Assembly: GCA_017554105.1 (NCBI GenBank)
Contig: JAFZIY010000027.1
Coordinates: forward strand, 1 to 64,000
Reading direction: 5' to 3'
Origin: Prevotella sp.
GTDB taxonomy: Bacteria; Bacteroidota; Bacteroidia; Bacteroidales; Bacteroidaceae
DNA length: 64,000 nucleotides
The stretch's first letter is position 1. Each line of letters starts with the position of its first letter. The translations under genes and the position numbers were made by a program. The notes beneath the pieces were generated by a model, which was not told the origin of the DNA, ran no database searches, and worked only from the letters and a program-made list of their open reading frames with translations. This document shows positions 26,885 to 47,261 of this stretch, in pieces.

Positions 26885-26910
26885 ATTCTTATAATCTAAT
26901 TAATCCTTTT

Positions 26911-27101
26911 AGCCCTGAAAGGGCATTTAGCACTCAGCCCAGGGCAGCGCCCTGGGTATTTTACGCATCAAAGAACAATCGCGCTGTAAGTGCAAAAGAT
27001 TTATAATGAGAGATTCTTTTGCCCCTGTAGGGCGTTTACTAATACTGTTATTTTACCCAGGGCGCTGCCCTGGGCTGAGGTCTATTGGCCTTTCAGGCTG
27101 C
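26911..27101. repeat. Inverted dispersed element with CCCAGGGC palindromes
   Basis: Two 19-bp palindromes (CCCAGGGCAGCGCCCTGGG at 26938-26956 and CCCAGGGCGCTGCCCTGGG at 27056-27074) sit in inverted arms that also share AGCC-CTGAAAGG and CTCAGCCC. The centre holds CCCCTGTAGGGCG and CGCTGTAAGTGC words. No gene is supported; the reading frames through it are repeat-derived. It borders the A+T-rich island on its left. Confidence 0.85.
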
Positions 27102-27258
27102 TAATTCTCACAGGTCAAATAATATGGTTCCCAATTTTTTCGTTGAACACACGTTATTTAAGAAGTTTATGCTGCAAAAGGGAGTTCTCCTTGTTTCTCT
27201 TTCATTTTAGTGATAAACTTTTTTCTTTCTAAAACTTGACGATTTCAAATAAAGTTTG

Positions 27259-27266
27259 TATATTTG
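27259..27266 (+). promoter_or_regulatory. Promoter of the structured RNA / nuclease-channel island
   Basis: TATATTTG box with TTG at 27236-27238 (20-bp spacer). The predicted transcript would begin just before the first hairpin at 27271. Confidence 0.65.
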
Positions 27267-27270
27267 CAGC

Positions 27271-27479
27271 GGATAGGGGGCTCGTGCGTTCCCATCCAAA
27301 TCTTTGTGGAAAAAATAGAAGCGTTATGCTCGTCTTGTATCTAGAAACCTGAGAAATTTCATAGTACGACAAGAGAACATGATGACTTCCACGTGTTAGC
27401 GTGGAATGTTATCCTATCTCCCGTACAAGGTTTCTCAGGACCTCTAGATGAAGATGTGGACATACAGTTCCACGCTTCT
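27271..27479 (+). ncRNA. Candidate structured RNA upstream of nuclease-channel genes
   Basis: The helices read by eye are nested. A 5' hairpin pairs GGATaGGG with CCCaTCC (27271-27297). Then P1 27317-27323/27473-27479 (AGAAGCG/CGCTTCT), P2 27339-27345/27443-27449 (ATCTAGA/TCTAGAT), P3 27348-27356/27431-27439 (CCTGAGAAA/TTTCTCAGG), P4 27364-27368/27422-27426 (GTACG/CGTAC), short GAG/CTC and AACA/TGTT helices, and the apical hairpin 27387-27406 (TTCCACG/CGTGGAA). A side hairpin GTGGA/TCCAC (27456-27473) competes with part of P1. No open reading frame of note and no terminator before the next gene, so it may be a 5' leader, a processed RNA or a separate sRNA. A 6S-like long hairpin is an alternative. 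Confidence 0.55.
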
Positions 27480-27540
27480 CTAATTAATATAGTTGTCTTC
27501 CGAGGGGCTGGGAGGATTGAACTTTATTAGAAATTAGATT

Positions 27541-28632
27541 ATGGACTTTAAAGATTCATTTTTTCAATTAGCTGAACGTGTATCAGCCCTGAAAGAATCT
27601 ATCCAAACGGAAGAGGCAACCAAGAATGCTTTTATTATGCCATTCATCCAGATGCTTGGATACGATGTTTTCAATCCATTAGAAGTGGTGCCAGAGATGG
27701 ATTGTGATATTGCCAAAAAGAAAGGAGAAAAGATAGATTACGCTATCATGAAGGATGGCTCCCCAATTATGTTAATTGAATGCAAGCATTGGAAACAGGA
27801 TTTGAACTTGCATGACAATCAGTTAAAGCGCTATTATGTTGCTTCTAAAGCAAAGTTTGGAGTATTGACAAATGGCATTGTTTACAGATTCTATGCAGAT
27901 TTAATAAAAGAGAATATCATGGATGATATCCCCTTCCTCGAAATTAATTTAGAGAAAACAAGAGAGGCACAAATTGAGGAAGTCAAAAAATTCTGTAAAG
28001 AGAACTTTGACCTTGACAATATTCTGAGCAGTGCCAATGAATTAAAATACATGTCGGAGGTCAAGAAGATTATTCGTTCTGAATTCAGTGAACCCTCACC
28101 TGAACTCGTCAAATTGCTAACAAAACGCGTGTATGAAGGCATTGTAACACAGAAAGTGTTGGATCAGTTTACTGACATAGTTGCACGAGCATTTAAGAGT
28201 CATATTAACGATGTTATGAGCGAGAAACTCGGTATTGCTATAAAAGCTACAGAGGCAGCTGGTGCTCCTGTTCAAACTTCTTCAGTAGCAACCGAGCAAA
28301 AAGATGAAGAACCCATCAAAGAGGAAGAAAAGCTATCTAAGATAAATACAACCGTTGAAGAGATGGAAGGATACTATATAGTAAAGAGTATTGTATGCGA
28401 GGTAATCTCTTCAGAACGTGTGACCTATCGCGATTCCCAATCTTATTTCGCAATCTTTGCTGACGATAATAATCGTAGACCTATATGCAGGTTGCATTTC
28501 AACAACACTAACAATAAGCGTATTGGATTTGTTGACGAAAACAGGAATGAGCAAATGGAATGCATCGATAAGTTGGATGACATCTACAATTATAAGAAGC
28601 AGCTGCTAGAAGCAGCAAAACGGTATATATAA
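27541..28632 (+). CDS. HsdR N-terminal-like PD-(D/E)XK nuclease protein (COG4748-like)
   Basis: The 363-aa protein has a nuclease-like N-terminal domain related to the type I restriction R-subunit N-terminus. Asp66 in EKIDYAIM and Glu80-x-Lys82 in LIECKHW form the PD-(D/E)XK triad, and Gln94-Tyr99 (NQLKRYYV) gives the accompanying QxxxY motif. A helical middle (residues ~130-245) and a charged linker (residues ~262-284, EQKDEEPIKEEEK) lead to a C-terminal beta-rich domain (SQSYFAIFADDNNRRPICRLHF). There is no helicase or methylase, so it is not a complete restriction system. It is A+T-rich unlike the flanking housekeeping genes. Its stop abuts the ion-channel ATG with no gap, a strong sign of coupling. 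Confidence 0.8.
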   Translation: MDFKDSFFQLAERVSALKESIQTEEATKNAFIMPFIQMLGYDVFNPLEVVPEMDCDIAKKKGEKIDYAIMKDGSPIMLIECKHWKQDLNLHDNQLKRYYVASKAKFGVLTNGIVYRFYADLIKENIMDDIPFLEINLEKTREAQIEEVKKFCKENFDLDNILSSANELKYMSEVKKIIRSEFSEPSPELVKLLTKRVYEGIVTQKVLDQFTDIVARAFKSHINDVMSEKLGIAIKATEAAGAPVQTSSVATEQKDEEPIKEEEKLSKINTTVEEMEGYYIVKSIVCEVISSERVTYRDSQSYFAIFADDNNRRPICRLHFNNTNNKRIGFVDENRNEQMECIDKLDDIYNYKKQLLEAAKRYI

Positions 28633-29406
28633 ATGGAGTCAGTAAAACGTTTTTTTACAAATGATAGTATAATGCTGGTGTTGGTGCTTATCAACACTGG
28701 CATTATATTTATTAGTGGTTTTTTGTCCAATCAAGGAGGAGTATTATTAATCATAGACAGTTTATTTACTCTGTTGTTTCTGTTTGAAGCAGTGGTAAAG
28801 ATTCATGTGCAAGGTTTCTCGAAATACTGGTCTGATGGATGGAATAGATTTGACTTTATTATTGTGTTGTTGGCACTCCCTGCCTGTGTTAACATCTTTG
28901 GACTCGATTTTCCAGGTACAAGTATTTTGTTGTCGTTAAGGACGATGCGTGCATTCAAGTCTTTCAGACTACTGAAATTCATTCCAAATATTGAGAACCT
29001 TATTAAAGGCATCAAATTGGCATTCAAGGCTTCATTCATAGTAGCTATCGGATTGATAGTTCTTTTATTAGTTTTCAGTATTATTACCACATTTCTTTTT
29101 GGTGATGTAGTTCCAGAGTACTTCGGCAATCCTGCTCTCAGTGTATATTCTATCTTCCGTTTATTCACTATCGAAGGGTGGTACGAAATGCCAGAAGCAA
29201 TTGCAGCAAATAGTGGAACGGCCATGGCAGTCTTTGCAAAAATATATTTCTCAATTCTTCTTTTCTTAGGTGGAATATTGGGCATGAGCCTTGTAAACAG
29301 CATTTTTGTTGATGCTATGGCAGAAGATAATAATGACGAAGTCCTTGATAAATTATCTCAACTAGAAAGGAAACTCGATAAAATGCAAAAAGAACAGGAA
29401 ACATAA
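28633..29406 (+). CDS. Voltage-gated-type cation channel (NaChBac-like ion transporter)
   Basis: A 257-aa one-repeat channel. S1-S3 lie in residues ~12-90, with NRFDF in S3 (Asp74). S4 carries a regular charge every third residue: Arg103, Arg106, Lys109, Arg112 and Lys115. S5 spans about 133-155, the pore loop has the filter-like FTIEGWYEM (Glu181) and S6 covers about 201-228. A C-terminal coiled coil (DKLSQLERKLDKMQKEQE) should tetramerise the channel. This is the voltage-gated Na+/Ca2+ channel superfamily pattern (TxE-W filter). Being translationally abutted to the nuclease-like gene, it may be the membrane effector of a two-protein module; that role is inference. Confidence 0.85.
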   Translation: MESVKRFFTNDSIMLVLVLINTGIIFISGFLSNQGGVLLIIDSLFTLLFLFEAVVKIHVQGFSKYWSDGWNRFDFIIVLLALPACVNIFGLDFPGTSILLSLRTMRAFKSFRLLKFIPNIENLIKGIKLAFKASFIVAIGLIVLLLVFSIITTFLFGDVVPEYFGNPALSVYSIFRLFTIEGWYEMPEAIAANSGTAMAVFAKIYFSILLFLGGILGMSLVNSIFVDAMAEDNNDEVLDKLSQLERKLDKMQKEQET

Positions 29407-47093: not shown

Positions 47094-47164
47094 CTTTACC
47101 TTAAACTTTAAATATAAATGTTTAAAGGGGGAGCGCCAATTGGAATACCAATTGAACTTGTCGT

Positions 47165-47238
47165 TCATTCCTACGCCGGCATTATCCGGATCAGGTTTGA
47201 GGGTCTAATCTCAGCCCGCCCACGGCGGACACCCCTTA
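47165..47238 (-). promoter_or_regulatory. TPP riboswitch (THI element)
   Basis: The minus strand reads AGGGGTGTCCGCC, then GGGCTGAGATTAGACCC, then ACCTGATCCGGATAATGCC and GGCGTAGGAATG, which is the full conserved THI-box core. The P2/P3 and P4/P5 stems are all present. Downstream an 18-nt hairpin CAATTGG-TATT-CCAATTG (47138-47155) could be part of the expression platform; no T-run follows, so translational or other control is more likely than termination. Confidence 0.96.
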
Positions 47239-47261
47239 ACTTACGCTTTGTAAATCGGGTG

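Follow-up and report, generated by a model that had tools for sequence, protein, structure and literature searches.

The Locus in Prevotella sp.

The stretch of DNA analysed here, called the window throughout, comprises the first 64,000 nucleotides (nt) of contig JAFZIY010000027.1 of Prevotella sp. (GenBank assembly GCA_017554105.1). On its forward strand, on which all features of the locus lie, it carries in this order a promoter, a folded RNA (27268–27535), a gene for a protein with an HSDR_N domain and a gene for a protein with an Ion_trans domain, with 0 nt between the two genes. A preliminary description of the window had proposed that the RNA and the two proteins form one anti-phage system. 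We describe here the RNA, a candidate regulatory leader that recurs as a family ahead of many other genes, and the gene pair that stands behind it at this locus (the handles L, G and C denote loci, genomes and contigs, respectively).

The promoter spans 27236–27266 and was identified from the sequence and by a scan: a TTGACG element at 27236 is combined with the −7 box TATATTTG at 27259–27266, TAnnTTTG being the type of −7 box found in Bacteroidota. The two genes are A+T-rich, with a G+C content of 37% (HSDR gene) and 36% (channel gene) versus 54% for murF-alr, 49% for the major facilitator superfamily (MFS) gene and 48% for the window. The locus is adjoined by a dispersed inverted repeat (26905–27105) with 11 matches distributed over seven genomic places, one of them its own. 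The gene neighbourhoods of the pair differ between genomes, from which it follows that the cassette moves. The promoter ahead of the RNA, the deviating composition, the adjoining repeat and the nature of the locus as an acquired island were all foreseen in the preliminary description, and our data bear them out. The two arms of the repeat resemble the Acido-Lenti-1 RNA, one on each strand; with 27.4 and 25.4 bits, these matches fall short of the gathering score (37).

A Structured RNA Family in Bacteroidia

The window RNA has a predicted folding energy of −97.1 kcal/mol (z = −5.70), and none of 200 shuffled sequences folds as well. A DNA search was positive for 40 of 199 relatives, and the genes next to the matches were often quite different ones; three of these 40 genomes (G015, G030 and G032) match over the promoter end alone. 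A covariance model, R1, was built from 33 copies, and RNAalifold detected two-sided changes in 15 of 30 pairs among the RNA copies. With R1, three copies are found in the window's own genome at E ≤ 0.01, while matches occur in 53 of 149 genomes of the order (up to 18 candidates scored per genome) and, in a sample of 118 genomes from the phylum, in 10 (up to 23 candidates scored per genome). The nine positive genomes of the phylum sample besides the window's own are all marked as members of the same class. Fuller scoring of eight rich genomes yielded 6–20 copies in each. Our searches for the RNA covered genomes of the phylum Bacteroidota and plasmid, phage and viral records; its range is given as Bacteroidales and Bacteroidia on the basis of named relatives.

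No family of Rfam 15 (4227 families) matches over the RNA in the window, either at the gathering score or at a relaxed threshold (E ≤ 5), nor did a scan of 14 loci (E ≤ 1) return any family over the RNA. A literature search, judged by titles and the openings of abstracts, found no paper describing it. The recurrence and the covariation make the RNA more than a chance fold, in agreement with the structured RNA originally proposed for 27268–27535. By the model matches and the covariation, it is a widespread structured RNA family of its own in Bacteroidia, contained in no Rfam 15 family. A housekeeping RNA, which the preliminary description had named as one of the outcomes that would speak against its proposal, was ruled out by the absence of any Rfam match over the RNA, the genome's match to the Bacteroidales-1 model being located elsewhere. 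We have also set aside a ToxI-like antitoxin or a retron RNA, because the following genes differ; there is no reverse transcriptase among the six proteins scanned at the locus. Elsewhere in the window, on the reverse strand, there are matches to the thiamine pyrophosphate (TPP) riboswitch (47150–47246; 63 bits) and to tRNA (68–140; 56.5 bits).

Two sets of copies underlie the counts given below. The better matches from the searches of the relatives, the order and the phylum amount to 84 forward matches; with nine copies from HSDR-type or near-identical loci, and minus one near-duplicate, they make up the 92-copy set. Plasmid, phage and viral records contribute a further 18 copies, namely 17 complete matches and L196, which was positioned from a BLAST match, and bring the total to 110. 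Excluded were palindromic matches on the reverse strand, nine that came with the 84 forward matches and 11 from these records, as well as three truncated matches, also from these records. The 110 copies are not independent of one another: 14 precede an HSDR gene, and L182 and L191, as well as L176, L180 and L188, are near copies of one another.

The Conserved Fold and a Pseudoknot

The core of the family, matched by R1 with 166 bits, extends from 27316 to 27479 in the window. It consists of nested stems (27318–27478) supported by covariation counts: the closing stem P1 (27318–27324 with 27472–27478), P2 (27339–27344 with 27444–27449), P3 (27348–27356 with 27431–27439), an inner stem and a terminal hairpin. 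Upstream of the core lies P0 (27271–27297), a 5′ hairpin of variable sequence whose helices 1 and 2 show two-sided changes in 6 of 6 pairs, with 79–87% of cells paired. In an alignment of 39 high-scoring leaders, 86.9% of the cells of the fold are paired; when the partners are slid against each other, the value falls to 40–44%. Two-sided changes, the pseudoknot (see below) included, are found in 36 of 62 pairs (29.8 in shuffled controls) and in 238 cells (98.8 in shuffled controls). In P3, for instance, one pair is C-G in 23 leaders and G-C in 15, while another is G-C in 24 and A-U in 15.

In addition, the heptamer CAGTTCC (27465–27471), located just 5′ of the 3′ strand of P1, can pair with a motif about 24 nt past the core, GGGGCTG (27504–27510). 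The latter is carried by a 3′ hairpin (27495–27518), the stem of which is weakly supported (helices 11 and 12; 52–68% of cells paired). Over the 92 copies, the score of this pairing is 12.3 for a copy's own partners, 9.6 for swapped and 7.4 for shuffled partners, and at least six of the seven bases are paired in 71 copies. Covariants include AAGTCCC with GGGACTT (L149), CAGTGCC with GGCACTG (L131) and AAACCC with GGGTTT (L159). These pairing tests and the covariation support the predicted pseudoknot. The conserved fold, as deduced from the aligned copies, is thus composed of P0, the nested core closed by P1 and the pseudoknot to the 3′ element.

An alignment scan of the 39 copies also revealed a mini open reading frame (mini-ORF) of eight codons in the window RNA (27326–27352), ending at the TGA of P3. 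Mini-ORFs of up to 10 codons exist in 38 of the 39 leaders, often reading ML[IVF]L with the stop at once or four codons later. P3 reads TGA or TAG in all 39 leaders, even where this triplet is out of frame, and most of the divergent copies inspected lack the ATG of the mini-ORF; for these reasons, the conserved mini-ORF is at most a possible leader peptide.

Position of the RNA and the Genes behind It

Among 65 high-scoring copies, 62 have a TAnnTTTG box 30–110 nt 5′ of the core, mostly at a distance of about 45–57 nt (5.0 expected from shuffles); for low-scoring copies, the count is 26 of 43 (2.1 expected). On the 3′ side, a same-strand ORF of at least 60 amino acids (aa) with an ATG codon starts within 140 nt in 101 of the 110 copies, versus 17 of 110 on the 5′ side and 44% for random positions. 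The median distance from the RNA to the start codon is 55 nt in the 83 of 92 copies that have an ATG ORF within 140 nt. Of the 89 copies with a gene upstream, 52 have the nearest one on their own strand. The position just before ATG ORFs on the same strand makes the RNA a leader by position, and we predict it to be the 5′ leader of these genes. In the part of the source consulted, 5′ leaders in Bacteroidota are reported to be usually short, with medians of 24 and 32 bp in two species (PMC9723704). At two places, L143 (G188 contig C706) and G271 contig C817, two copies of the RNA occur about 50 nt apart, at L143 before one gene.

Pfam and PADLOC were searched with 74 of the 101 first downstream proteins (1 of 14 HSDR proteins and 1 of five HxsD-like proteins were kept; near copies and some further proteins were omitted). 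The 74 proteins match 113 Pfam families, none of which occurs in more than three of them. Recurrent cargo consists of the HSDR gene, following 14 copies of the RNA, and an HxsD-like gene, following five. A crude criterion of hydrophobicity marks 57 of the 83 proteins of at least 60 aa encoded behind the RNA as apparently exported; at a minimum length of 150 aa, the same criterion selects 45 of 58 following proteins versus 237 of 819 all-frame ORFs from the same loci.

PADLOC returned matches in single downstream proteins, for example to ZorA (4.5e-180) and DarT (3.6e-14), which we take to be those of L064 and L195. At L195, on Parabacteroides distasonis plasmid 78, genes for a Toprim-domain protein and hypothetical proteins are followed by the RNA, an annotated DUF4433 (DarT-like) gene and more cargo, including a protein that appears MotB/ZorB-like from its translation. 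At L055, L114, L121, L182 and L191, the RNA precedes what, from the translations, appears to be a radical SAM operon of the His-Xaa-Ser type.

A Possible Competing Helix and the Predicted Mode of Action

The middle segment of the core, which pairs with the 3′ arm in the main inner stem, can alternatively pair with the 5′ arm in a competing helix. Over 84 copies, the energy of the competing helix is −10.8 kcal/mol for a copy's own arms, −7.4 kcal/mol after swaps between dissimilar copies and −6.0 kcal/mol with shuffled partners; the corresponding values for the inner stem are −17.3 kcal/mol versus −9.1 (swapped) and −9.7 (shuffled). On the alignment, 86% of the cells of the competing helix are paired, with 13 two-sided cells versus 4.9 in shuffles. 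The sequence TATGC in the 5′ arm, which is part of this helix, is invariant in the 39 leaders. That the RNA could switch between two folds has moderate support from these pairings, short of proof.

We think it probable that the RNA is a cis-regulatory leader indifferent to the nature of the gene it precedes, most likely a switch. Following its own promoter and standing before unrelated, mostly exported or mobile accessory genes, it would adopt one of two alternative folds, depending on whether the middle segment of the core pairs with the 5′ arm or the 3′ arm. The change of fold, in response to an external signal, would gate expression of whatever gene stands behind, at the level of translation for most copies; divergent copies with a U-run after P1 may act by termination instead. 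In the window, the leader would control the acquired operon of the HSDR_N protein and the channel.

A passive leader that stabilises or insulates the messenger RNA of acquired genes, with no switch at all, would explain the unrelated genes behind the RNA, the own promoter, the 5′ hairpin and the tight fold. We deem it improbable: stability alone would not need the TATGC of the 5′ arm to be invariant and to lie in the competing helix, a helix that has some support.

Several observations nevertheless speak against a regulatory switch, or against one that works in the same way in all copies. When swaps are unrestricted, the lead of the competing helix shrinks (−10.8 versus −8.6 kcal/mol), and 13% of the 84 copies are in the best 5%, as compared to 77% for the inner stem. 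Two-sided changes are limited to four of its 13 pairs, as many as 45 of 500 shuffles reach, and 20 of the 39 leaders do not form one of the pairs. The pairing between the 5′ arm and the 3′ joining segment that is needed for an all-nested fold barely beats swaps (−6.2 versus −5.9). Moreover, the following genes share no pathway, unlike those controlled by most metabolite riboswitches. Nine of the 92 copies, including L160, L163 and L165, have no ATG ORF within 140 nt. Finally, a run of at least five Ts directly follows P1 in 36 of 43 low-scoring copies, versus nine of 67 high-scoring ones, the window copy not being among these. This U-run suggests termination control in the low-scoring copies, or else a free RNA; it is the principal argument against one mechanism shared by all copies.

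The last two observations would be accommodated by a trans-acting RNA that stands by itself and terminates at P1 and the U-run, with genes that are merely adjacent. The scarcity of the run in high-scoring copies, the pseudoknot partner beyond P1 and the location of all but nine of the 110 copies just before a same-strand ATG ORF render such an RNA unlikely, and the cis-regulatory leader remains our preferred explanation. L160, L163 and L165, which come from other genomes of the class, may themselves be free-standing relatives of the RNA.

Signs of Exchange between Loci

Some cores are 91–95% identical while their flanks are left unaligned by blastn; the blocks of identity begin and end at the borders of the core or no more than about 10 nt away (L004 and the window, 94.8%; L115 with L117, 93.5%, with L127, 92.8%, and with L116, 91.7%). 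For L117 and L130, and also for L058 and L062, the upstream side aligns too, identity ends at the 3′ end of the core and the cargo differs. Such core-bounded blocks imply an exchange, through transfer or gene conversion, of the core itself or of the cargo downstream of it. L068 and L020, two copies about 1.3 kb apart in G147 (contig C18), share an identical beginning of the core and diverge thereafter, in a manner reminiscent of gene conversion.

From the 89 upstream proteins, 31 were hand-picked for scanning, three of which match Mob_Pre, that of L117 among them. The upstream proteins of L182 and L191 begin like that of L117, while those of L072, L179 and L195 are mobilization-like by their setting; at the mobilization-type loci, the RNA lies 86–133 nt past this upstream gene. 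In three near-identical contigs from a viral collection, the RNA follows an apparent terminase gene (read from the translation).

The bounded identity blocks, the pairs of loci with a common upstream side and different cargo, and the copies found between a mobilization-type gene and cargo would suit a mobile or recombining RNA unit, for example a homology platform for cargo swapping, in which regulation is secondary. We hold this to be rather doubtful, slightly more so than the free RNA. The promoter, P0 and the pseudoknot element, all outside the core, recur along with it, so that the whole leader looks like a working unit. Furthermore, we found no precise empty site (at L035, an HSDR locus, the difference in the 5′ region extends nearly to the ATG), the ends of blastn alignments prove no junction, and no recombinase is consistently adjacent among the loci viewed.

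A broader form of the regulatory leader hypothesis may be put forward tentatively, as possible though less likely than the switch as such: the RNA would be one exchanged switch class across Bacteroidia, carried by mobile elements before cargo, that senses one common cue, gates a fast-changing set of exported and mobile genes and brings new cargo under this common control upon arrival.

The HSDR_N Protein and Channel Pair

The first gene behind the window RNA (27541–28632) encodes a protein of 363 aa with an HSDR_N domain of the PD-(D/E)XK type (Pfam: HSDR_N, 1.9e-14; HSDR_N_2, 5.4e-10). The residues D66, E80, K82, Q94 and Y98 are invariant in an alignment of 15 close homologues, which confirms the intact triad and the QxxxY motif of the nuclease-like protein announced in the preliminary description. 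The AlphaFold model of the protein is uninformative (mean predicted local distance difference test score, pLDDT, 36). With phmmer, the C-terminal part of the protein resembles Musashi (E 0.009), which we attribute to chance.

The second gene (28633–29406) encodes a single-domain cation channel of the voltage-sensor type, 257 aa long (Pfam: Ion_trans, 2.9e-29), which matches solved chains of calcium and sodium channels and of a bacterial "ion transport protein". Its translation displays an S4-like segment with R or K at every third residue and the filter motif TIEGW, and the zero spacing, the single repeat, the S4 and the TxEGW filter are hence as initially described. A helicase is absent from the Pfam matches of the 363-aa protein, and neither a helicase nor HsdM or HsdS partners were matched in the channel or in the four neighbouring proteins scanned, in line, as far as these six proteins go, with the earlier view that this is no restriction system. 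PADLOC matched neither protein of the pair at E ≤ 1.

Among the 15 close HSDR homologues, the RNA precedes the gene in 14 (the exception, L035, has no RNA) and the channel gene follows it in 12 (exceptions L175, L178 and L181). At 16 of 23 channel loci, most of these 16 being more distant, no HSDR match was found; one locus, L034, has just 632 nt of upstream sequence. Four distant full-length HSDR homologues (about 48–56% identity) all lack the RNA at their loci. At L207 (G158 contig C99), a channel homologue (46% identity) is located 44 nt upstream of an HSDR homologue (51%), that is, in reversed order, and there is no RNA. The lack of the RNA at the four distant loci indicates that the RNA is not a fixed part of the pair's task. 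With regard to co-occurrence, the check set in the preliminary description, the two genes are usually linked to each other, the reversed pair of G158 included, while the linkage of the RNA to the pair breaks down at L035 and at all four distant loci; by that check, the RNA is not tied to the gene pair. By its distribution, the pair is one acquired cargo whose members can each be found alone as well. A common task of the two proteins is quite plausible, possibly one in defence.

A joint action of the RNA, a nuclease-like sensor and a channel effector against phage, as originally suggested, would agree with the order RNA–HSDR–channel in most of the close homologues, with the swapped pair in G158 and with the acquired island. 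We consider it very improbable: the family mostly precedes other genes, by which an RNA specific to the HSDR/channel pair is ruled out, none of the four distant HSDR loci has the RNA, both genes are also found by themselves and neither is matched by PADLOC. A leader that would regulate whatever cargo follows it remains the favoured account of the RNA at this locus.

Relation to Known RNAs and Proteins

The cyclic di-GMP class comprises multi-copy riboswitches that serve many unrelated genes. The RNA described here resembles these in being a predicted 5′ leader with a conserved fold and putative competing helices, present in many copies per genome before unrelated, often surface-related genes; it differs in that no Rfam model matches it and in that its gene set is accessory or mobile, with no shared pathway. 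Bacteroidales-1 (RF01693; 179 positions), which is possibly a 6S RNA, is likewise structured, of similar length and found in Bacteroidales. In contrast to it, our RNA is a multi-copy leader; the single RF01693 match of the genome lies on contig C22, and neither a 6S RNA model nor the Bacteroidales-1 model matches at the RNA site (all of Rfam, E ≤ 5).

As regards the proteins, the 363-aa protein is like the R subunits of type I restriction enzymes in its HSDR_N and HSDR_N_2 domains and intact triad, and unlike them in having no helicase match. NavMs and NavAb represent the bacterial type of voltage-gated channel, with which the putative channel of the window shares the Ion_trans match, the S4-like segment and a filter of the TxExW type. 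Unlike the pair-linked channel of the window, several Prevotella relatives (L041–L043, L045–L047 and L053) lie close to apparent thyA and folA genes rather than next to an HSDR gene.

According to the part of the publication consulted, the Flavo-1 RNA is a dispersed structured motif of Bacteroidota to which no function is assigned and which is reported in sense or antisense (PMC9723704). The first two traits are common to both RNAs; ours is oriented to the gene, and there is no Flavo-1 match in 14 loci at E ≤ 1. The candidate structured RNA HMP2_1881 is described, in the portion consulted, as 108 bp long, mostly from Bacteroidetes, located near radical SAM domains and expressed (PMC8040213). 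Some copies of our RNA, too, precede apparent His-Xaa-Ser radical SAM operons, and HMP2_1881, compared by description only, might overlap it and represent a partial prior sighting.

Structured leaders are known as such; a multi-copy one that stands before unrelated genes and bears signs of exchange is unusual. For bacteria that form a dominant group in the gut, a structured leader of about 250–270 nt that reaches 20 copies in a genome yet has no entry in Rfam would amount to a sizeable gap in the RNA catalogue. The window locus illustrates that an RNA adjoining a candidate defence pair need not belong to that pair. If the RNA is a switch, it would provide a control element for the engineering of gut Bacteroidales, and identification of its signal would reveal the control of a broad set of exported and horizontally acquired genes in these bacteria.

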